From an uncultured Clostridia bacterium (GTDB lineage Bacteria > Bacillota > Dehalobacteriia > UBA4068), in NCBI GenBank assembly GCA_944393575.1, contig CALYAP010000073.1, forward strand, positions 1 to 32,513: a stretch of 32,513 nt of DNA, written 5' to 3'. Positions 304-32,004 of the stretch are shown here, in pieces (positions within the stretch are counted from its first letter, which is position 1; every line of letters starts with the position of its first letter). The position numbers and the translations under genes were made by a program. The notes under the pieces are model-generated. The model searched no databases. It had not been told where the DNA came from and saw only the letters and a program-made list of their open reading frames with translations.

Positions 304-351
304 AATTGCCATTAATACCGTTAAGAAAAGCTCTTCAAAATATCTTGATCT

Positions 352-392
352 AAATTAAAAGCTACGCACCAAAAGGGCGTAGCTTTTAATTT
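352..392. terminator. Intrinsic terminator, 16-bp perfect stem
   Basis: The arms at 352-367 and 377-392 are perfectly complementary (core AAAGCTACGC / GCGTAGCTTT) with a 9-base loop. The A-rich and T-rich ends of the stem supply a U tract on either strand, so it may work in both directions. It closes the partial radical SAM gene. Confidence 0.85.
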
Positions 393-519
393 GCTATCAG
401 AAAAGGTTTCTGTGAATAGCTGGGGGTGTTAAGTAGTTGCCAAGAAGTTAAGTAGATATTAGTTATGATTATTACGAGGAGCAGTTATGCCTTTTACCTA
501 CTGAAGCGGAGGAGCCAAT

Positions 520-11150: not shown

Positions 11151-11963
11151 ATGAGAAGGTATCCCAAGATCAATCTGAGCTGGCGGACGGTCATCATTGC
11201 CATTTCGCTCTATGCCCTCTTTTTGACAGGCTTTTCTTTGGGCGCTCATAGTATTGGCCCCTCTACTAGTTCTGCCGCTGTTTTGACTGCTGAAGATGTG
11301 CCGCCAGTGGAGGAGAGCCTGTTAGTTATCGGCAGTGCCCAAGCAGAAGAGCCGGAAGCAGCAGCCTCTGACGAGCCCTTGGTGCCCCAAGCAGTAGTAT
11401 ACTGTACCCATACCTCAGAGGGTTATTATGGTCAAGAACGTCAAAACGGCGTAGCTGGCGGTGTTCTGGATGCTGCCCGTTCTCTCCGGGATGCATTGGA
11501 AGCCAACGGTATCGGCGTGATTCTGCTGGAGGAGGTTTTTGACGCTCCGGACTGGAATAATTCCTATGGATATTCTTTGGCTGCTGTGGAAGAAGTCAAA
11601 GCTCAATACCCGGATATCCAGCTCTATATAGACGTGCATCGTGACGCAGAGATCCCTGGTGTGGATACCCATTTTAGCGATGATAGCGGTTCTTATGCCC
11701 GGATGATGCTGATTATTGGCAGCAACGCTAACCTGCCGCACCCTAATTGGGAGCAAAACCGCGCTTTTGCTGATCAGCTTTATAATGAGCTGGAAAGCAG
11801 CAAACCAGGGCTGATGCGGGATTCTAAGATTTATAATGGCCGGTATAATCAGCATGTGGGTAATAAAGCCATCTTGGTTGAGATCGGTTCAACTTCCAAT
11901 ACTGTGGAAGAAGCAAAGGCCTCAGCTACCTTATTGGGAAATGCCATTGCCAAGCTGCTTTGA
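11151..11963 (+). CDS. spoIIP: Stage II sporulation protein P (cell wall hydrolase)
   Basis: The 270-residue protein has one N-terminal membrane segment (about 15-33), a linker, and a SpoIIP catalytic domain from about 80 to 270. Visible family motifs are CTHTSEGYYG (H87, E90), YIDVHRDA (H163), GSNANLPHPNWEQN and ILVEIGSTSNTVEEA (E244). SpoIIP works with SpoIID (and SpoIIM) during forespore engulfment and acts as an amidase/endopeptidase on septal and forespore peptidoglycan. It is shorter than the usual 330-400 residues because the linker is reduced. ATG 11151 lies 6 bases after TGGAGG; an in-frame ATG at 11136 overlaps the SD and is unlikely. It follows the rpsT terminator, and a sigma-E-like promoter precedes it. 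Confidence 0.9.
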   Translation: MRRYPKINLSWRTVIIAISLYALFLTGFSLGAHSIGPSTSSAAVLTAEDVPPVEESLLVIGSAQAEEPEAAASDEPLVPQAVVYCTHTSEGYYGQERQNGVAGGVLDAARSLRDALEANGIGVILLEEVFDAPDWNNSYGYSLAAVEEVKAQYPDIQLYIDVHRDAEIPGVDTHFSDDSGSYARMMLIIGSNANLPHPNWEQNRAFADQLYNELESSKPGLMRDSKIYNGRYNQHVGNKAILVEIGSTSNTVEEAKASATLLGNAIAKLL

Positions 11964-12025
11964 TAAATCATATCCAGCATAGATCGGCAATTATCTTCCA
12001 GCAGTTTTACAGAGGGAGAAGATTA

Positions 12026-12925
12026 ATGAAAAGCGACCTCCAAAAACTGGTAGAGATGGTCAGAGCGCTTCCTTTGACTTTAGAAAGCAATCAAACATCT
12101 ATCCAATATTTAACTGTATACTATTTTAATGCTAAGACGATAGAGATGCCGGACTTAGACTCACCGTATTTATATTTACCTCTTGATGGCTCGATGCGGC
12201 TTCATACCCCTTCGGGGATAATGGATTATCTGCCTGGGCAGTACTCCCTATCAGCAATCGATAACCCTATGTCTGGACAAGTCTTGACCTTTTCCGCCGC
12301 AGGTGATTTTTTAGCATTGGCTATTGAACTAACTTTGGATGATGTTATTTCTGTTATTTTGGCCATGGAGGATGATTTGGCGGAACGCATTGCCAATGAT
12401 CAAATAGCTAGCCAGACTATGGAGATAGCGGATAATAATGTTATCAGTGCCATAGCTAAATTATGCTCTCTGCTCGATGCCCCTGACCAGCTTGCTTTTA
12501 TGGGGCAACATATGAAACGGGAAATCATCTTTGAGGTATTATGCGGTTCATGCGGAAAGCAATTCCTGCAAAGCATTATCAATATCCAACAAGCTGGGGA
12601 AATCTATGCTGCCAACAGCTGGATAAAACAAAATTTCAAAAAACCTTTTACCGTGGAAGAGCTGGCTGAACAACGTAATATGAGTGTTTCAAGTTTTCAT
12701 CAAAAATTTAAAAGCGCAGTAGGCATGGGCCCACTGCAATGCCAGAAACGCTTGCGCCTTACTGAGGCCAGAAGAATGATGCTGGATGAGCAGGCCACGG
12801 TCACCGATGCCTCTCTTGAAGTTGGCTATGAAAGCGTCTCGCAGTTTATTCGCGATTATCGGAAAATGTTCGGGCTATCGCCTAAAGAGGATATCTTGAA
12901 TTTACGTCAACATTTGCAGAAATAG
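12026..12925 (+). CDS. AraC family transcriptional regulator
   Basis: The 299-residue protein has an N-terminal AraC_N-type sensing domain (about 10-160) and a C-terminal double helix-turn-helix domain (about 200-295), with FTVEELAEQRNMSVSSFHQKFKSAVG in the first HTH and SLEVGYESVSQFIRDYRKMFG in the second, typical of AraC/XylS regulators. The ligand is unknown. ATG 12026 follows AGAGGGAGAAG; an upstream in-frame TTG (11960) overlaps the spoIIP end and lacks an SD. It lies 62 bases after spoIIP and 121 bases before the GlcG-like gene on the same strand, which it may control. This gene marks the left edge of the redox/stress block. Confidence 0.9.
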   Translation: MKSDLQKLVEMVRALPLTLESNQTSIQYLTVYYFNAKTIEMPDLDSPYLYLPLDGSMRLHTPSGIMDYLPGQYSLSAIDNPMSGQVLTFSAAGDFLALAIELTLDDVISVILAMEDDLAERIANDQIASQTMEIADNNVISAIAKLCSLLDAPDQLAFMGQHMKREIIFEVLCGSCGKQFLQSIINIQQAGEIYAANSWIKQNFKKPFTVEELAEQRNMSVSSFHQKFKSAVGMGPLQCQKRLRLTEARRMMLDEQATVTDASLEVGYESVSQFIRDYRKMFGLSPKEDILNLRQHLQK

Positions 12926-12981
12926 GCAAATTATATGGAGGAATAGGCAAGCTCTCAAAACAATTTCGCTGTTAGGATAAA

Positions 12982-13032
12982 TATAGCAAGGGAATTACTT
13001 TGGCGAAGAGTTCCCTGTTGATATTCGCTATA
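12982..13032 (+). promoter_or_regulatory. Structured 5' leader of the GlcG-like/DUF6485 pair
   Basis: An outer stem TATAGC/GCTATA (12982-12987 with 13027-13032) encloses a hairpin: 12990-12996 (GGGAATT) pairs with 13009-13015 (AGTTCCC, one wobble), then CTT/AAG closes a TGGCG loop. The SD AAGGAGG (13032-13038) touches the outer stem, so folding could affect translation. There is no T tract, so this is not a simple terminator. I cannot assign it to a known riboswitch class. Confidence 0.4.
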
Positions 13033-13046
13033 AGGAGGGCCTAAAA

Positions 13047-13457
13047 ATGATCCTAACAGATGAATTATGTGACAAATTGTGTGCTGCTGCTCAAGAAAAA
13101 AGCAAAGAACTAGGCGTGGAAATCAGCTTTGCTATCAGCGATGCTAGTGGCTTGCCTAAGCTATACCGCCGTTTTGGTGAAGCGCTGGTATTAAGCATCA
13201 CCCTTGTCCCGGGCAAGGCCTATACAGCGGCTGTAACCCAGTGTAAAACCAAAGATGTGGCAGCCTGTGCTGCCGAGGGCGGTTCCTTGATGGCAATTCA
13301 GTCCAATGATCCGAGGATCACCCTTGTGGCGGGCGGTTATCCTTTGTTTGTCGATGGAAAAATCGCCGGCGCTATCGGTGTCGGCGGCGGTACAGAAGAG
13401 CAGGATTGCACCATCGCTGAATATGTTGTTGATGTTTTTGAAAGGCTGACCAAATGA
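13047..13457 (+). CDS. GlcG/HbpS-like (DUF336, PduO C-terminal type) protein
   Basis: The 136-residue, single-domain protein matches the GlcG/HbpS (DUF336) family: an N-terminal helix, ISFAISDASGLPKLYRRFG, KAYTAAVTQCKT, a GGYPLFVDGKIAGAIGVGGGT segment and a DCTIAEYVVDVF C-terminal helix. Relatives include heme-binding HbpS, GlcG and the C-terminal domain of PduO, but many are of unknown function. ATG 13047 follows AAGGAGGGCC. It overlaps the next gene by 4 bases (ATGA), so the two are translationally coupled. Upstream are a structured leader and an AraC regulator. Heme or corrinoid binding is possible but not shown by the sequence. Confidence 0.85.
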   Translation: MILTDELCDKLCAAAQEKSKELGVEISFAISDASGLPKLYRRFGEALVLSITLVPGKAYTAAVTQCKTKDVAACAAEGGSLMAIQSNDPRITLVAGGYPLFVDGKIAGAIGVGGGTEEQDCTIAEYVVDVFERLTK

Positions 13458-13669
13458 GTTGTTTAAGCAAATTTTGTACTTGTACTAATCTGGAATGTAC
13501 CTTACATCCTACTCGGCATGACCAGGGCTGTGCTCCATGCATCGCCAAAAATTTAAAACTTGGGGAAATTCCCAGCTGTTTTTTTAATTTGCTTGATAAT
13601 GCCGAGTCCAGGACAGGTGATACCTTTGAAGATTTTGCTGATTTGATAATCAAAAACCGTTGTAAATAA
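13454..13669 (+). CDS. Cysteine-rich DUF6485-type small protein
   Basis: The 71-residue protein has eight cysteines (C3, C8, C10, C15, C26, C29, C42, C70), in the order CTCTN, then C, then GCAPC, then IPSCFF. This is the pattern of the DUF6485 family found in anaerobes. It has no signal peptide or membrane segment, so it is likely cytosolic. The spacing suggests a zinc- or iron-sulfur-binding site, which is inference. It starts at ATG 13454 inside the end of the GlcG-like gene (ATGA overlap), so the two products probably work together. A long hairpin lies 42 bases downstream. Confidence 0.75.
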   Translation: MSCLSKFCTCTNLECTLHPTRHDQGCAPCIAKNLKLGEIPSCFFNLLDNAESRTGDTFEDFADLIIKNRCK

Positions 13670-13710
13670 AATGCTGGTCGGATACGCAGTTTGGGCTATG
13701 CATGATAATA

Positions 13711-13760
13711 AAGCGGATAGTGCTGTTACCAGATGGATCATCTGGGCAGACTATCCGCTT
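13711..13760. terminator. Compound hairpin between convergent genes
   Basis: The outer arms AAGCGGATAGT (13711-13721) and ACTATCCGCTT (13750-13760) are perfectly complementary over 11 bp, and the inner part holds a second stem CCAGAT/ATCTGG. T-rich ends occur on both strands, so it probably stops both the DUF6485 and the hxlR-type transcripts. Confidence 0.7.
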
Positions 13761-13830
13761 TTCGTTAATACGGGGAACACTTTGTCAAGATAAATAGGGC
13801 GTACAGAGTTCCCTAAAGGTTTTATAGCGT

Positions 13831-14166
13831 TTAGCGCCGGTTTTTATCTCCCCATTCGCACATGGAGTCGAGAATAGGGATCAAGGATTTGCCCCGTTCG
13901 GTCAGGCTATATTCAACCTTGGGTGGGATCTGGGGGTATTCCTCCCGATGGATCAGCCCGTCCGCCTCCAGCTCTTTGAGCGTCAAGCTGAGCGTTTTGT
14001 AAGAAATGGTACCGATATATTTTTTCATTTCATTGAAACGCACTACGCCAAATTCCATTAGGCAATATAGAATAACCATTTTATATTTGCCATTGATCAA
14101 CGACATCGTGTAGTAAAACCCGGTTTCCTCCCATTTGGCATCCGCGATACAAGTTAACCAACTCAT
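13831..14166 (-). CDS. HxlR family transcriptional regulator
   Basis: The 111-residue winged-helix protein has the HxlR signature: INGKYKMVILYCLM, then VRFNEMKKYIGTISYKTLSLTLKELEADGLI and EYSLTERGKSLIPILDSM. Like YodB/HypR-type members, it has a cysteine near the N-terminus (C6) and one near the C-terminus (C103), which in those proteins sense quinones, disulfide stress or aldehydes. That role is inferred here. ATG 14166 follows AAAGGGGA. It is divergent from a flavodoxin-type reductase with only 145 bases between, so it most likely controls that gene and itself. Its stop is followed by the hairpin at 13711-13760. Confidence 0.9.
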   Translation of the reverse strand: MSWLTCIADAKWEETGFYYTMSLINGKYKMVILYCLMEFGVVRFNEMKKYIGTISYKTLSLTLKELEADGLIHREEYPQIPPKVEYSLTERGKSLIPILDSMCEWGDKNRR

Positions 14167-14185
14167 TTTTAATTCCCCTTTGTTT

Positions 14186-14256
14186 GTACGCTTTACTTTA
14201 GGTTAGTATATAACATCCATGTGCGTACTTGACGATTGATTTATTTATTATAGAAT
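14186..14256. promoter_or_regulatory. Overlapping divergent promoters with GTACGC inverted repeat
   Basis: Plus-strand promoter: TTGACG (14229-14234), 16 bases, TAGAAT (14251-14256), towards the flavodoxin gene. Minus-strand -10: TATACT (14210-14205), towards the HxlR gene. GTACGC (14186-14191) and GCGTAC (14223-14228) form an inverted repeat that brackets the minus-strand -10 and abuts the plus-strand -35. This is a plausible HxlR operator arrangement. Confidence 0.45.
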
Positions 14257-14311
14257 TATAGTATGAGCTGTTGATCAAGTCAAGAATTTTTATTGATTGG
14301 AGGAAAGAGTT

Positions 14312-14857
14312 ATGGCCAAGAAGATTGTCGTGCTGACTGGCAGCCCCAGAAAAAAGGGTAATAGTATCGCTATGACCGAAGCATTTATCGCTGCCGCGCA
14401 AAAGAAGGGGCATCAGATAACCCGTTTTGATACCGCGCAGATGCAAATCAATGGCTGCCGTGCCTGCGATACCTGCTTTAGCCAGGGAAAAGCTTGTAGT
14501 TTTGATGATGATTTCAATAAGATCGCCCCTGAAATTGAGGCTGCAGATGTGGTCGTGTTCACGATGCCGGTATATTGGTACACGATGCCGGCGCAGATCA
14601 AGGCGCCTATCGATAAACTGTACTCTCTAGTGGTTGGCCAAAGGGATATTGCCGGCAAGCAATGCGCTTTGATCGCCTGCTGTGAAGAAGATGATATGTC
14701 GGTTTTAGACGGCGTGCTGATGCCTTATCAAAAAAGCATCGCTTTGCTAAAATGGACCTCCATCGGTGAGGTCTTGATCCCTGGTGTTTTAGCGGTTGGC
14801 GATATTGACAAAACTGATGGCTGCCAACAGGCGGCAGCATTAGCTGATAGGATTTAA
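14312..14857 (+). CDS. Flavodoxin-fold NAD(P)H-dependent FMN reductase family protein
   Basis: The 181-residue protein starts with the phosphate-binding loop LTGSPRKKGNS (9-18) and has VVFTMPVYWYTMPAQIKAPIDKLY, as in the FMN_red/flavodoxin_2 family. Four cysteines lie in NGCRACDTCFSQGKAC (C49, C52, C55, C62), the spacing seen in iron-sulfur flavoproteins (Isf type), though here the motif could be only partly conserved. It probably reduces quinones, nitro compounds or oxygen species in the cytosol using FMN. ATG 14312 follows GGAGGAAAGAG. It is divergent from the HxlR-type regulator and heads a run of three related redox genes. Confidence 0.88.
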   Translation: MAKKIVVLTGSPRKKGNSIAMTEAFIAAAQKKGHQITRFDTAQMQINGCRACDTCFSQGKACSFDDDFNKIAPEIEAADVVVFTMPVYWYTMPAQIKAPIDKLYSLVVGQRDIAGKQCALIACCEEDDMSVLDGVLMPYQKSIALLKWTSIGEVLIPGVLAVGDIDKTDGCQQAAALADRI

Positions 14858-14879
14858 CCAGGGGGAGTTTGCAGCACTG

Positions 14880-15170
14880 ATGACGGTAGCGCAAGCTCTA
14901 AAGAATAGATTCTTTCTTATAGTCAATTTTTGCTACAACTATTTTTCCCAAAGCCTGATGCTGTCTGCCATAGAGCATGGCCTGGCTACGATACCGGCAG
15001 CTGTTTTTGTCGGCTATCCTGATCTGATCCGCCGGGTATTGGCTATCCCGGAGGATAAGGCGGTTATTATCGGCATTGGTATCGGTTACCCTGATCTGAG
15101 TGTGAAGGTCAATCATTTTAAATCTAGCCGTAAACCAATCTCTGAAGTTGTTTACCGAGGGGTTGAATAA
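14880..15170 (+). pseudogene. Nitroreductase with internal deletion
   Basis: The 96-codon frame joins what looks like a nitroreductase N-terminus (MTVAQALKNR, normally followed by a basic RSIR-type FMN-binding segment) to the C-terminal third of the family: QSLMLSAIEHGLATIP, VFVGYPDLIRRVLAIPEDKAVI, IGIGYPDLSVKVNHF and SSRKPISEVVYRG. Full-length members have about 170-220 residues. The middle, about 100 codons holding the dimer core and flavin contacts, is missing and replaced by about 12 unrelated-looking residues (FFLIVNFCYNYF). The frame is still open and has a GGGGGAG site, but at a long 12-base distance. It is most likely non-functional. A stable small protein cannot be excluded. Confidence 0.7.
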
Positions 15171-15201
15171 ATTCTTGGCATAAGAAGGAAAAGGAGAGAT
15201 C

Positions 15202-15750
15202 ATGATGAGTAAAAAGATTATCATTTTGAATGGCAGTCCTAGAGCTAAGGGCAATACGATGGGGATTATCAAGGCCTTTACTGCCGGTGCTGAGGCGGCC
15301 GGTCATACTGTTACCAGATTCGATCTGCAAAAGATGAACATTCATCCTTGCATTGGCTGCTGCCAAGGTGGTAAAGATATCTCCAGCCCTTGCACGCAAA
15401 AGGACGATATGGATAAAATTTATCCTGCCTACCGTGAAGCAGATGTGGTTGTTTTGGCTTCCCCGCTTTATTATTGGACGATCAGCGGCCAGCTTAAATG
15501 CGCCTTTGACCGTCTCTTCGCTGTAGCGGAGTGTGATGCCAATTGCCGCAATCCGCATAAGGAAAGCGTTTTACTGATGGCGGCCGAGGGTTATGGCTTT
15601 GATGAAAGCAAGATGTATTATGAAGGCCTGATTAAACATCTGGGTTGGCAGGACCTGGGACAGGTTTTAATCGGCGGCGTTAATGATATCGGCGATATTG
15701 AAGGCCATCCTAGCCTGGCGGAGGCAGAAGCTTTAGGCAAAAATCTCTAA
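15202..15750 (+). CDS. Flavodoxin-fold FMN reductase family protein (second copy)
   Basis: The 182-residue protein has the LNGSPRAKGNT phosphate loop (9-19), a cysteine set at C50, C53, C54 and C64 (HPCIGCCQGGKDISSPC), and VVLASPLYYWTISGQLKCAFDRLFA, all typical of the flavodoxin_2/FMN_red family. It is related to, but clearly diverged from, the product at 14312-14857, so the two are paralogs and not a recent duplication. ATG 15202 or 15205 can be used; AAGGAGAG is better placed for 15205. It sits 31 bases after the nitroreductase remnant and probably belongs to the same HxlR-controlled unit. Confidence 0.88.
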   Translation: MMSKKIIILNGSPRAKGNTMGIIKAFTAGAEAAGHTVTRFDLQKMNIHPCIGCCQGGKDISSPCTQKDDMDKIYPAYREADVVVLASPLYYWTISGQLKCAFDRLFAVAECDANCRNPHKESVLLMAAEGYGFDESKMYYEGLIKHLGWQDLGQVLIGGVNDIGDIEGHPSLAEAEALGKNL

Positions 15751-15859
15751 ACCACCTTGCCAAAAGATTGCTGTATAAGGTTTATTTAGAAAGCTGATAT
15801 GCCGAAGGTTGGTATATGAAAAGTTAATAGAAAATCGGTAGATAGAAAGGAGCTTTATT

Positions 15860-16366
15860 ATGCAAGAGATATCCTTGGGTCAAGCAAGTAAATTCACCTC
15901 ACCTAATCCTCTGACTGTGGTTTGTACCGAGACCCCAGCCGGTAAGACTAACTTGGCGCCGGTTTCCTGGTGGAACTATTTGTCCTTTAATCCTAATATC
16001 ATTTGTTTCGCTATGGCTAAGACCTCCTACAGCGGCGAGATGGTACGCCAGAATAAACAGGTAGTTTTGGCGATGCCGGGTACCAGTATTGCTGATGCAA
16101 TCATGACCTGCGGCAGCCTCTCCGGACGGGATATTGACAAGGCAGAGGAACTAGCTATCGAACTGATCGATCTGCCGGAAGGCGCAATCAAGGTGCCAGC
16201 TCATAGCCGTATTGCTATTCAGTGCCAGTTGATGAATACCGTTGAGGCCGGTGATCATTGGCTCTATTTATGCACGGTGGATCATGTCTATATTGTTGCT
16301 AAAGAAGAAGCCTTATTTGCTTGGAATGGTTATGCTAAGCTGCGTCCCGCTAAGATGGCGGATTGA
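15860..16366 (+). CDS. Flavin reductase-like FMN-binding split-barrel protein
   Basis: The 168-residue protein fits the flavin_reduct (DIM6/NTAB) family: an N-terminal TSPNPLTVVCTETPAGKTNLAPVSWW flavin-binding part, FNPNIICFAMAKTSYSGEMV, then FVxxMP-like VVLAMPGTSIADA, and a C-terminal barrel strand set. Members bind FMN and pass electrons to flavodoxin-type or iron-sulfur partners. ATG 15860 follows GAAAGGAGC. It lies 109 bases after the second flavodoxin gene and is closed by a 17-bp hairpin terminator. The neighbourhood suggests it belongs with the flavoprotein cluster. Confidence 0.87.
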   Translation: MQEISLGQASKFTSPNPLTVVCTETPAGKTNLAPVSWWNYLSFNPNIICFAMAKTSYSGEMVRQNKQVVLAMPGTSIADAIMTCGSLSGRDIDKAEELAIELIDLPEGAIKVPAHSRIAIQCQLMNTVEAGDHWLYLCTVDHVYIVAKEEALFAWNGYAKLRPAKMAD

Positions 16367-16431
16367 TGAGTGCTGGCAGTAGTTTGCTATAGGTGAAAAA
16401 TTGTAGATATAGCTATTTTTAGCTACTGTTA

Positions 16432-16469
16432 AAAATAAAATGCCTAGTAATGACTAGGCATTTTATTTT
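16432..16469. terminator. Bidirectional intrinsic terminator, 17-bp perfect stem
   Basis: The arms 16432-16448 and 16453-16469 are perfectly complementary (core ATGCCTAGT / ACTAGGCAT) with a 4-base loop and A/T-rich outer ends. It lies between the flavin reductase gene and the convergent MGMT gene. A smaller hairpin TAGCTA-TTTT-TAGCTA (16410-16425) lies just upstream. Confidence 0.9.
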
Positions 16470-16492
16470 CTGAATAAACATAAGCGGCATTG

Positions 16493-17029
16493 TTACAGTG
16501 CTGTGCCCTTTTTAGGGACAAAGAGCTTGCTCAGATCAACTTTTTCTAAGGTCAGCAGCTGGATCTTTTTATCGATACCTCCGGCATATCCGGTCAGGCT
16601 GCCATTGCTGCCGACCACCCGATGGCAGGGAACAATCAGCGAGATCGGATTATGCGCTACTGCCCCTCCTACTGCCTGGGCGGACATAGTAGCGAGACCT
16701 TTCTGTTGAGCAACCATTTGCGCGATCTCCCCATAAGTAAGCGTTTGGCCATAGGGGATTTGCTGTAGAATATCCCATACCATAAGACGAAATGGCGTGC
16801 TGTCTAAAAATAATGGCGGAGTAAACCCTGGATCCTGTCCATCAAAATAGCAGTCCAGCCATTGTCGTGTTTGTTGAAAAACCGGCAGGTCTTTTTCTCG
16901 GCATTGTTCAGCCAGGGTATCGCCGAAATACTTTTGCCCGTCAAACCATAGTCCGGTCAGGCTATTCCCATCACTGGCGATAGTGATGCCGCCAAGCGGT
17001 GAATCGTAGTGATAAGTATAAGTCTGCAT
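16493..17029 (-). CDS. ogt: Methylated-DNA--protein-cysteine methyltransferase (Ogt type)
   Basis: The 178-residue protein carries the suicide active site IVPCHRVV (C135), the upstream helix-turn-helix segment IPYGQTLTYGEIAQMVAQ, and the AVGGAVAHNPIS asparagine hinge. It repairs O6-alkylguanine by moving the alkyl group to C135. The N-terminal domain (SPLGGITIASDGNSLTGLWF) is normal, and no Ada methyl-phosphotriester domain is present. ATG 17029 follows GGAGGGCAATGAACA. It is the second gene after the DUF1624 membrane protein gene on the minus strand (41-base gap), so the two are likely co-transcribed. Confidence 0.95.
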   Translation of the reverse strand: MQTYTYHYDSPLGGITIASDGNSLTGLWFDGQKYFGDTLAEQCREKDLPVFQQTRQWLDCYFDGQDPGFTPPLFLDSTPFRLMVWDILQQIPYGQTLTYGEIAQMVAQQKGLATMSAQAVGGAVAHNPISLIVPCHRVVGSNGSLTGYAGGIDKKIQLLTLEKVDLSKLFVPKKGTAL

Positions 17030-17070
17030 TGTTCATTGCCCTCCGACTAGTTGTTTAATAATAACCGCTA

Positions 17071-17886
17071 TCAGGCAAAAATTTTGCCCAGCAGCAGTAG
17101 TATTAAGTAGATGGCTGGTTGATGCAGGATATAAAGCAGCAGTGCATGCCGCCCGAGCCACATAAAGGGTTTAAGCGCCTTGCCATGGCCATGCTTGGGG
17201 AAAAAGCTCCGTTTTTCACGATAAAGCCAGCCGCCTAACACTGCACCGATGAGGAACCAGCCCAGATAGGGTATCAACGGAAAATAATCGGCAGAGAAGC
17301 CTTCGCTGCCCATCCCTAAGGCAAAGAGGATAAATCCACCACCGGAGCAACTTTCTGGTCCTACGAAAAGCGAGGCTACCAGGATAGCAGCGCCCAGAAC
17401 CAGTGAAGGCCAGGGGCCGAAACGGCTCAGCCCAGCATAGGCCAGCATCGAGAGCGCCAGCATATGCAAAACACCAAAGCTGATAAAAAAGCTTTGCTGA
17501 TCCATTATCAGATCCATCAGAGCGGTGGCGCCGCTTAAGGCCAGAGCTACTGCTAACAATTTTAACCCGCGTTTGAGATTAGAGCGGGAGAGTGAGCAGG
17601 AGATGCCGCAGCTGCCGATGAAACCGGCTAATACCATTACGCGAATGATATGGCGTACTGGCCAGTCCCAATAAAAATTGCGGGCAAAATAACAGATATC
17701 GTAGATGATACCACTGCCGCCATCAGCAAACCATTGCTGGGGAAAAACGAAGCCTAAGTCGTAGAATAGATGATCTAAGATCATCAGCGCGACACAAAGC
17801 CCGCGGATAAAGTCCAGCTCCCAGATGCGTTGCCGTGGCAGTGCAGGAGATATTGATGAATTGGTAATTTCTGTCCTTTGTTCCAT
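17071..17886 (-). CDS. DUF1624 / HGSNAT-like membrane acyltransferase family protein
   Basis: The 271-residue multi-pass protein starts with RIWELDFIRGLCVALMILDHLFYDLG, the DUF1624 (heparan-alpha-glucosaminide N-acetyltransferase catalytic domain-like) signature with the conserved arginine and DH pair. About seven membrane segments follow. A short SFGVLHMLALSM segment and the C-terminal WLGRHALLLYILHQPAIYL also fit the family. Members are thought to transfer acyl groups across the membrane to sugars, but the bacterial substrates are unknown. It starts at ATG 17886, is divergent from murJ (84-base gap), and precedes the MGMT gene on the same strand. Its link to DNA repair is likely positional only. 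Confidence 0.85.
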   Translation of the reverse strand: MEQRTEITNSSISPALPRQRIWELDFIRGLCVALMILDHLFYDLGFVFPQQWFADGGSGIIYDICYFARNFYWDWPVRHIIRVMVLAGFIGSCGISCSLSRSNLKRGLKLLAVALALSGATALMDLIMDQQSFFISFGVLHMLALSMLAYAGLSRFGPWPSLVLGAAILVASLFVGPESCSGGGFILFALGMGSEGFSADYFPLIPYLGWFLIGAVLGGWLYREKRSFFPKHGHGKALKPFMWLGRHALLLYILHQPAIYLILLLLGKIFA

Positions 17887-27509: not shown

Positions 27510-28066
27510 TGGCTATCCTCCTTTTTTAATTTCTTTTTGATTAATCCTATAACCAGTCCGGTGGCAGCAGCGGCCAAGACAATAATGATAGGATTGATCA
27601 AATCGAGCGCCAGTAGGACTAAAGCTGCTAGAAAAATGATCACTGTGGCGATATTTTTGATACCGGTTTTAGCCATACTGTAGGTGGAATACATCACCAG
27701 TGCAGCTACAACGACTTTGATCCCATTGAGAGCGTGTACGACAATAGGTATCGAAGCGAAGTTTTCCATTAGCATTGCCAGTATCAGAATAACAAGAAAA
27801 GAAGGCAGCGTCATTCCCAGAGCGCCGCATAATCCGCCCCATGCTCCATAGCGTTGAGCGCTGATGAGAACGGAAATATTGATCGCCAGCGGACCAGGTT
27901 GACATTGCGCCAAAGCAAAATAATCGGTCAGTTCTTCCTCGCTGAGCCAGTGTCTTTTAGTCACCAACTCTCCTTGGAGAAGCGGCAACATCGAATAACC
28001 GCCGCCGAAAGCACTGATGCCGATCTTGGCGAAAATAAGCAAGCATTTTAGGTATTCTTTGATCAT
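27506..28066 (-). CDS. Chromate transporter family protein, first half (ChrA1)
   Basis: The 186-residue CHR-domain protein has FAKIGISAFGGGYSMLPLLQ (12-31) and AQCQPGPLAINISVLIS (53-69), and about five or six membrane segments. It pairs with the following half (183 residues); the two copies are inverted-topology partners in the short-chain CHR group. Its start codon shares a base with the stop of the flavodoxin gene (TAATG), so all three are one tightly coupled operon. The C-terminus is basic (IKKKLKKEDSQ). The flavodoxin partner could reduce chromate or protect from redox stress; that pairing is inference. Confidence 0.9.
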   Translation of the reverse strand: MIKEYLKCLLIFAKIGISAFGGGYSMLPLLQGELVTKRHWLSEEELTDYFALAQCQPGPLAINISVLISAQRYGAWGGLCGALGMTLPSFLVILILAMLMENFASIPIVVHALNGIKVVVAALVMYSTYSMAKTGIKNIATVIIFLAALVLLALDLINPIIIVLAAAATGLVIGLIKKKLKKEDSQ

Positions 28067-28611
28067 TAGATAGAGAACCCCAGTTTGTATGCTTCTACCA
28101 GAGCGGGATTATCTTGGATACTGCCGGCAGCATTTACTCCATTAACCAGAATACGGCCCCGGTCTTTCCATTGGAGATAATCGACCAGTGCCAGCTCGTA
28201 GCTCTTTTCCGCTCCGCTAAAAGCTTGCGGATCCTTGTCTGCTGCCGTCATCAACAACGCTGTTTCCTTATGCCGGATTTGATACTGCGGGCCAAAAGCA
28301 TAGAGCCGGTCGATAACTAGTTTCAACTGCGCTGGCCAGTCATAAAAATATAGCGGCGCTGCCAAAACAATGCAGTCAGAACCGATGATCGATGGATAGA
28401 TCTTTTGCATATCATCATCTTGACAGCACTGGTGTTCATGCGTGCGGCAGTATTCGCAGGCAGTACAAGGTTCCACTTTAGCCAGCGCGACATTGATTCG
28501 TTTAACCCAGTTGCCGGCAGCCTCAGCGCCAGTGATAAAGGTTTCTGCCAAGGTATGGCTATTGCCATTAAGCCGAGGACTGGCATGCAGCACAAGAATA
28601 TTTTTGGGCAT
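28066..28611 (-). CDS. Flavodoxin-fold FMN reductase family protein (third copy)
   Basis: The 181-residue protein has LHASPRLNGNS (8-18), a cysteine-rich segment with C49, C52, C55, C62 and C63 (EPCTACEYCRTHEHQCC) and IVLAAPLYFYDWPAQLKLVIDRLYAF, so it is a paralog of the products at 14312 and 15202. ATG 28611 is chosen because AAAGGA lies 8 bases upstream; ATGs at 28641, 28638 and 28620 have no SD at useful distance. It heads the operon with the two ChrA halves. A palindrome with GATAAT/ATTATC arms overlaps its promoter, suggesting iron- or redox-dependent control. Flavin-dependent reductases of this kind can reduce chromate, quinones or nitro compounds. Confidence 0.87.
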   Translation of the reverse strand: MPKNILVLHASPRLNGNSHTLAETFITGAEAAGNWVKRINVALAKVEPCTACEYCRTHEHQCCQDDDMQKIYPSIIGSDCIVLAAPLYFYDWPAQLKLVIDRLYAFGPQYQIRHKETALLMTAADKDPQAFSGAEKSYELALVDYLQWKDRGRILVNGVNAAGSIQDNPALVEAYKLGFSI

Positions 28612-28671
28612 CAGCCCCATCCTTTCTTTAAATAGCATCATCCTGTTATACCTGTGATGGTATCAGTGTAA

Positions 28672-31493: not shown

Positions 31494-31644
31494 TTTAAGA
31501 GTAGTAGCATTTTAGATCATTAGCTGCATAAAATAATAATTTCTCTATCTTTTAATGCAAAACCTGTCTTGTTGTTTCTTTTTCAGCAGGACTGCGCGCT
31601 GTTCTAATATTATCATGGAATATTAGCAGAAAAAATATTATAAA

Positions 31645-31686
31645 AGCTGAAGTGTGACAGACTGTTCAGTCTATCATACTTCAGCT
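31645..31686 (-). terminator. 19-bp hairpin with minus-strand U tract
   Basis: The arms 31645-31663 and 31668-31686 pair with one mismatch and one G-T wobble around a GTTC loop (ends AGCTGAAGT / ACTTCAGCT). On the minus strand it is followed by TTTTATAATATTTTTT, as in an intrinsic terminator. No minus-strand gene lies upstream of it in the window, so what it would terminate is unclear; a small RNA or a mobile-element end are alternatives. Confidence 0.5.
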
Positions 31687-32004
31687 GACGTTTGTTTGAT
31701 AATATCTTGTTGTTTATGTTATAAAATTGCTGGATATTGCTTTATTGCTTAGTTTCATGTTTTATGAGTTAAGACGGTGTTTTTAGCGATAGAAGTGATA
31801 ATAAAAATATTAAAACTGTGGCAATAAAAAATTTTCAAAAAATTTGTCACAATATGAAGCTAACTACTCTATATAATAATAGGAGAAGAATTGCCTGCTA
31901 GTATTATCTGTTGTTTTGATTAAGATATCTAGTATTAATAAAGGATTATCGATAAATTTGTGGAAATAGAAGGTGCTATGCCTAATTTTTGGTTAACCTG
32001 ACTT

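Follow-up and report, generated by a model that had tools for sequence, protein, structure and literature searches.

Within the window (the entire 32,513-nucleotide stretch analysed here), a gene for a divergent protein of the HbpS fold shares an ATGA overlap with a gene for a small protein carrying a six-Cys motif, and this overlap is likely to couple the two genes translationally. They lie in what is probably an acquired block of stress-type genes, and the coupling was found in this genome only. The pair is mostly ordinary, and neither the pairing nor the hairpin in front of it turned up in any other genome examined.

The first-pass annotation of this DNA, made from the sequence alone, had described a GlcG/HbpS-like gene preceded by a Shine-Dalgarno (SD) sequence and overlapping by ATGA a gene for a small DUF6485 protein with eight Cys. 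These assignments hold: both proteins match the corresponding Pfam families far above the gathering cut-offs (Table 1), eight Cys residues are counted in the smaller one, and the shared ATGA and an AGGAGG motif ahead of glcG are seen in the sequence. The two genes differ in GC3, which is 0.467 for glcG versus 0.319 for the DUF6485 gene.

Table 1. Positions of the features of the glcG-DUF6485 region in the window
Feature	Position	Strand	Basis and details
5.1-kb block that the same-genus genome G005 lacks at this site	11962-17070	.	homology to L164 stops at 11961 and restarts at 17071
AraC_N/HTH_18 transcriptional regulator	12026-12925	+	Pfam PF06719, PF12833
5' arm of the dominant outer stem, CTGTTAGGAT	12969-12978	+	folding
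Inner hairpin, GGGAATTACTTTGGCGAAGAGTTCCC	12990-13015	+	folding, -8.9 kcal/mol
SD-like AGGAGG of glcG	13033-13038	+	by sequence; partly paired in the ensemble
GlcG-like protein, 136 aa	13047-13457	+	Pfam: HbpS-like PF03928, residues 3-128, 95.2 bits versus a gathering cut-off of 25
3' arm of the dominant outer stem, ATCCTAACAG, codons 2-5 of glcG	13050-13059	+	folding
DUF6485 protein, 71 aa	13454-13669	+	Pfam: PF20095, 98.7 bits versus a cut-off of 24
Long hairpin between the DUF6485 gene and the convergent HxlR-type gene	13710-13761	.	23 pairs, 12 of them forming a perfect closing stem
HxlR-type regulator in the block	13831-14166	-	Pfam; the RrpA model gave 154 bits, under the cut-off of 185
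Block genes for two NADPH-dependent FMN reductase-like proteins and one flavin-reductase-like protein	14312-16366	+	Pfam
O6-methylguanine-DNA methyltransferase in the block	16493-17029	-

Distribution of the pair and of the surrounding block

The DUF6485 protein was used to scan 84,980 species genomes by exact short peptide patterns, an approach that misses distant members and that yielded 67 DUF6485 loci. The full 2.5 kb of upstream sequence was available for 55 of them, and two (L006 and L009) had less than 70 bases upstream and were uninformative. With one profile seeded with the window protein and another grown over 32 other HbpS loci, we found no HbpS-like gene beside DUF6485 in the available flanks of any of the 67 loci, nor, with the latter profile, in the 1.5-kb flanks of 29 further loci from the phylum. 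In a sample of 398 genomes of the phylum, DUF6485 was present in 79 and PF03928 in 44; both families were found in 16 genomes, compared with about nine expected if they were independent (kinship ignored). The window's own genome was the only one of these 16 in which the two are adjacent. Four of the other 15 carry both families on a single contig, with at least 0.38 Mb between them, and in the other eleven the families are on different contigs; one of the eleven (G293) has HbpS only as a fragment with stops. Within these samples, the linkage check of the pair that had been set beforehand fails, and one conserved joint function is not supported.

The genes next to DUF6485 vary between lineages (among the DUF6485 loci up to L101, minus L001 and L070), which argues for a stand-alone role of this protein and leaves its partnership with GlcG without comparative support. 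No relative of the AraC regulator was detected in a search of the remaining DUF6485 and HbpS loci. Among plasmids, 72 records had an HbpS-like match, all at less than 60% identity, and one had DUF6485; no relative of GlcG was found in the viral collection.

In the same-genus genome G005, the site of the 5.1-kb block is occupied by about 87 unrelated bases that separate SpoIIP (77% identical) from a convergent HGSNAT-like gene (83%), followed by MurJ (90%). SpoIIP and MurJ also occur together, with the block absent, in G016 (S20); a third stretch, from G015, yielded no MurJ and is therefore uninformative. Among the 35 genomes of the order, both families are found in a single genome (G000) and neither in the 34 others, and in the class (43 genomes) DUF6485 is found in one genome and PF03928 in three. 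The matches to the AraC protein in the order's other genomes begin at query residue 140 or later, i.e. in its HTH half. To judge by its absence from relatives, the block is probably an acquired cassette, and it could also represent several insertions or an old block that was lost in the relatives. No integrase or transposase was found among the identified genes of the block, and searches of PADLOC and PHROGs for a defence or phage origin gave no matches.

Besides the pair, the block encodes two regulators, three flavin enzymes and a methyltransferase for DNA repair (Table 1). AraC_N-type regulators are tied to the aldehyde response through YqhC. The HxlR-type neighbour has Cys6-Ile-Ala and no Cys-x-Lys (Cys11, Lys13) near its N-terminus. 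The araC gene is possibly the first gene of an operon with glcG and the DUF6485 gene. No promoter-like match was found on the plus strand in 12926-13046, so both the position of the promoter and the co-transcription with araC are guesses. The long hairpin downstream of the pair, between it and the convergent HxlR-type gene, possibly terminates transcription. It falls in grid windows 13681 (+) and 13694 (-), with z about -5.5, has no long T run and is absent from the list of the terminator scan. A weak terminator-like site was seen inside the DUF6485 gene, at 13560-13575 (the scan found two such sites, with 2.3 expected by chance).

Two further observations concern the flavoprotein genes. The 96-aa ORF at 14880-15170, located between the two FMN-reductase-like genes, matched no Pfam family at E 0.001; by eye it resembles the tail of a nitroreductase. 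A third FMN-reductase-like gene (28066-28641) lies outside the block and is kept in G005 at 71% identity.

The GlcG-like and DUF6485 proteins

The GlcG-like protein was compared with 34 domains from the 32 other HbpS loci fetched, the window copies L001, L002 and L070 being excluded. It has five Cys residues, versus 0 to 3 (median 0.5) in the other domains, and not a single His in its 136 residues, a property shared by two of the 34. K57 and D120 are kept and G113 occupies the site of the pocket Ser, while all 34 other domains have the Ser, the Lys and the Asp. Thus, the pocket Lys-Ser-Asp triad, which lies outside Pfam's definition of PF03928, is incomplete in the window protein. We regard the five Cys and Gly113 as an oddity of the sequence and not as evidence of function.

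Conservation of Cys in DUF6485 was assessed in alignment A1, a hand-picked set that consists of the window protein, 49 of the 67 loci from the species genomes and 12 of the 29 further loci from the phylum. Six positions are nearly or fully invariant: C8 and C10 (60/60 each), C15 (60/61) and C26, C29 and C42 (62/62 each). Of the 62 aligned rows, that of the window is the only one to have the other two, C3 and C70. Identity of the window protein to other family members reaches 69%. The conserved pattern suggests a metal or cluster site, and a metal on DUF6485 appears plausible from its sequence. The AlphaFold2 model (62 sequences) has a mean pLDDT of 87.9 and a pTM of 0.71 and consists of four short helices, without any strand as long as three residues; a Foldseek search with it returned no PDB chain. 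No papers naming 'DUF6485' or 'PF20095' were found in the PubMed Central library searched. For a small Cys-rich family that is present in 79 of the 398 sampled genomes of the phylum, the overlap with an HbpS-fold gene, even if confined to a single lineage, provides a concrete pair for a binding test.

The PF20095 matches in the phylum fall into two groups, with 5 of the 79 rows scoring 74.6-98.9 bits and 74 scoring 43.1 bits or less. In the low-scoring rows shown (L077, L081, L086 and L098), the HP/GC part is missing and the sequence is CTCTYxxC and C(C)xC; such rows may constitute a separate family.

The hairpin in the glcG leader

The first-pass annotation had drawn a two-level hairpin in front of glcG, of which the inner level holds and the outer one does not. 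The inner stem, formed by GGGAATT (12990-12996) and AGTTCCC (13009-13015) with CTT/AAG on top, has pair probabilities of 0.93-1.00 over its seven pairs. The outer stem had been assigned to TATAGC (12982-12987) and GCTATA (13027-13032), which are indeed complementary over 6 nt but pair with a probability of only 0.09-0.10, i.e. in about 10% of the ensemble. With both levels as drawn, the 73-nt structure comes to -11.7 kcal/mol; in their best fold, these nucleotides reach -16.2 kcal/mol. The dominant pairing, overlooked earlier, is a perfect 10-bp outer stem (Table 1) with pair probabilities of 0.90-1.00. Its 3' arm is located within codons 2-5 of glcG, so the SD sequence and the start codon come to lie between the two helices.

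The apparent rarity of this fold varies with the chosen edges. Shuffling the 135-nt region 1000 times gave an inverted repeat of 10 bp or more in six cases, and, of the window's 13 other gene starts, one carries such a repeat. Folding of 12926-13060 gave z -1.09, with 31 of 200 shuffles equally good and a lower z at 4 of the 13 other gene starts; the 73-nt piece 12978-13050 gave z -1.12 (29 of 200 shuffles equally good). For 12965-13064, with edges picked to include both arms, z was -3.23 (1 of 200 shuffles). When all 100-nt subwindows of 12926-13080 were scanned in real and shuffled sequences alike, one of the 300 shuffles got down to -30.7 kcal/mol. Across the contig, a coarse grid over both strands (25 shuffles per window) contained 32 windows out of 812 with z of -3.23 or below. 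The leader fold is thus locally stable and not exceptional. No intrinsic terminator was listed for the leader by the terminator scan.

On the same grid, again with 25 shuffles each, the local folds with the lowest z lie at 31614-31713 (-), with z -8.4, and at 334-433 (-), with z -6.8. Separately, CTGTTAGGAT was considered as a DNA operator: with at most one mismatch, five sites were found in the window (both arms included), versus 1.9 expected, and 5 of 100 shuffles reached five, so this candidate was set aside as having little support.

Comparison with known RNAs and with other genomes brought out no convincing relative of the leader. At the gathering score, the 4227 families of Rfam matched the window only at four tRNAs, none of them at the leader, and the best weak match in 12880-13120 was caiA (15.3 bits versus 55.5, E 4.3). 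The covariance model used (R1), whose input was the window leader entered twice, is free of variation and poorly suited to distant copies. Within the window it matched only the leader itself, and in the 398 phylum genomes, with stricter filters, it matched the leader and a single site in G381 (E 0.0026 for that single genome). Because 398 genomes were searched, the latter match is at about chance level, and we take it as such; it is located at the start of a gene, presumably thiC, in a genome that is not among the 44 with PF03928. Two weak matches were obtained in 99 DUF6485 and HbpS loci, L038 (E 0.048), where the match sits 1.2 kb beyond the DUF6485 match, and L029 (E 0.81). The viral collection contained no exact copy of the inner hairpin (one base left free). 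Neither family was found among the order's 34 other genomes searched, and the closest HbpS-like domains fetched share about 40% identity with the window GlcG, so no orthologous leader was available for comparison.

The earlier suggestion that the leader may be a new cis-regulatory RNA is therefore unsupported: it has no Rfam match, no convincing second copy and only one leader sequence behind it, and its outer stem was misdrawn. The leader serves rather as a caution, a designed-looking hairpin without comparative support among what could be searched.

Possible roles of the pair and known relatives

The best explanation, which we put forward tentatively, is that a small-molecule binder is translationally coupled to a six-Cys, probably metal-holding protein in a probably acquired block. 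The two genes would be the last ones of a transcription unit, perhaps araC-glcG-DUF6485, carried in the 5.1-kb block, whose absence from relatives and gene content make acquisition most likely. Through the ATGA overlap, translation of DUF6485 would depend on that of glcG and the two products would be made in a fixed ratio. GlcG, as a Cys-rich binder of the HbpS/DUF336 family that lacks the usual pocket Ser, would probably bind or buffer a metal or some reactive small molecule, the six-Cys DUF6485 protein being its putative metal-holding partner, and the 5' hairpin, with its outer stem over codons 2-5, may lower initiation at glcG. We prefer this explanation because of the identity of the two families and their ATGA overlap, the absence of the block from G005 and G016, the redox- and stress-type neighbours, the hairpin after DUF6485, the five Cys and Gly113 of GlcG, the conserved Cys of DUF6485 and the rarity of both families in the class.

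Nearly as likely is an accidental junction, in which unrelated genes were brought side by side in the acquired block, share no function and are preceded by an incidental hairpin. The ATGA overlap speaks against such an origin, as does the location of a Cys-enriched GlcG next to a Cys-rich protein, itself possibly due to chance, whereas the absence of the pair from all 67 DUF6485 loci and from the 15 other sampled genomes with both families, the differences in DUF6485 neighbours from lineage to lineage and the unequal GC3 values of the two genes all favour it. A further alternative, which we consider unlikely, is that the leader works as a translational switch operated by a ligand, a protein or temperature, with the 10-bp stem over codons 2-5 blocking the ribosome until it is opened. 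The high pair probability of this stem would fit a switch, and so would the best 100-nt fold (z -3.23, matched by 1 of 300 shuffles scanned alike), but a z as low is found in 32 of the 812 grid windows of the contig, the z of the leader rises to -1.09 with wider edges, the single sequence allows no covariation, and neither an Rfam match nor a convincing second copy was obtained.

Two more specific proposals appear less probable still. The pocket-Ser-less, Cys-enriched HbpS-fold protein and the DUF6485 metal protein might form an obligate complex that acts as a thiol- or metal-based sensor of electrophiles or metals, its synthesis restrained by the 91-nt hairpin at 12969-13059 with the outer stem over codons 2-5. 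We regard this as improbable; if true, it would provide the first function for DUF6485. The least probable is that GlcG is an EfgA-like formaldehyde sensor in an aldehyde-response block. EfgA of Methylorubrum extorquens (PDB 6BWS, 6C0Z) is the second-best relative of solved structure (62 bits), its contacts K57 and D121 correspond to K57 and D120 of GlcG, which are kept, and the neighbouring genes are of redox type. However, EfgA is reported to bind formaldehyde in a pocket with K57, S114 and D121, and S114N is among the loss-of-function alleles described for EfgA (PMC8153426), so the presence of Gly113 at the site of S114, where all 34 other domains have Ser, weakens the case for formaldehyde sensing. 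In addition, the HxlR-type neighbour lacks the Cys-x-Lys pair that PMC7835342 describes for HxlR as a sensor of formaldehyde.

Among known systems, DUF6485 (PF20095) is an uncharacterised family, whose window member follows an HbpS-like gene, unlike its members in the 67 and 29 other loci. HbpS proper is a secreted heme sensor with a Tat signal sequence (PMC8153426), whereas the domain of GlcG starts at residue 3 and, by inspection, leaves no room for such a signal. The C-terminal domain of PduO (PDB 5CX7) belongs to the same family (61 bits) and uses His18 as the heme-iron ligand (PMC4923194). The PduO-C mode of binding was therefore rejected for heme or a corrinoid in GlcG: GlcG has no His to serve as a His18-type ligand, which makes the heme binding proposed earlier impossible in the mode described for PduO-C (PMC4923194), and it has no fused adenosyltransferase domain. 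The best relative of solved structure is OrfY of Klebsiella pneumoniae (PDB 2A2L), of the HbpS/DUF336 fold, which matches residues 7-134 at 67.9 bits. OrfY has the GVSG serine, whereas the window GlcG has Gly at this position, together with its five Cys residues.
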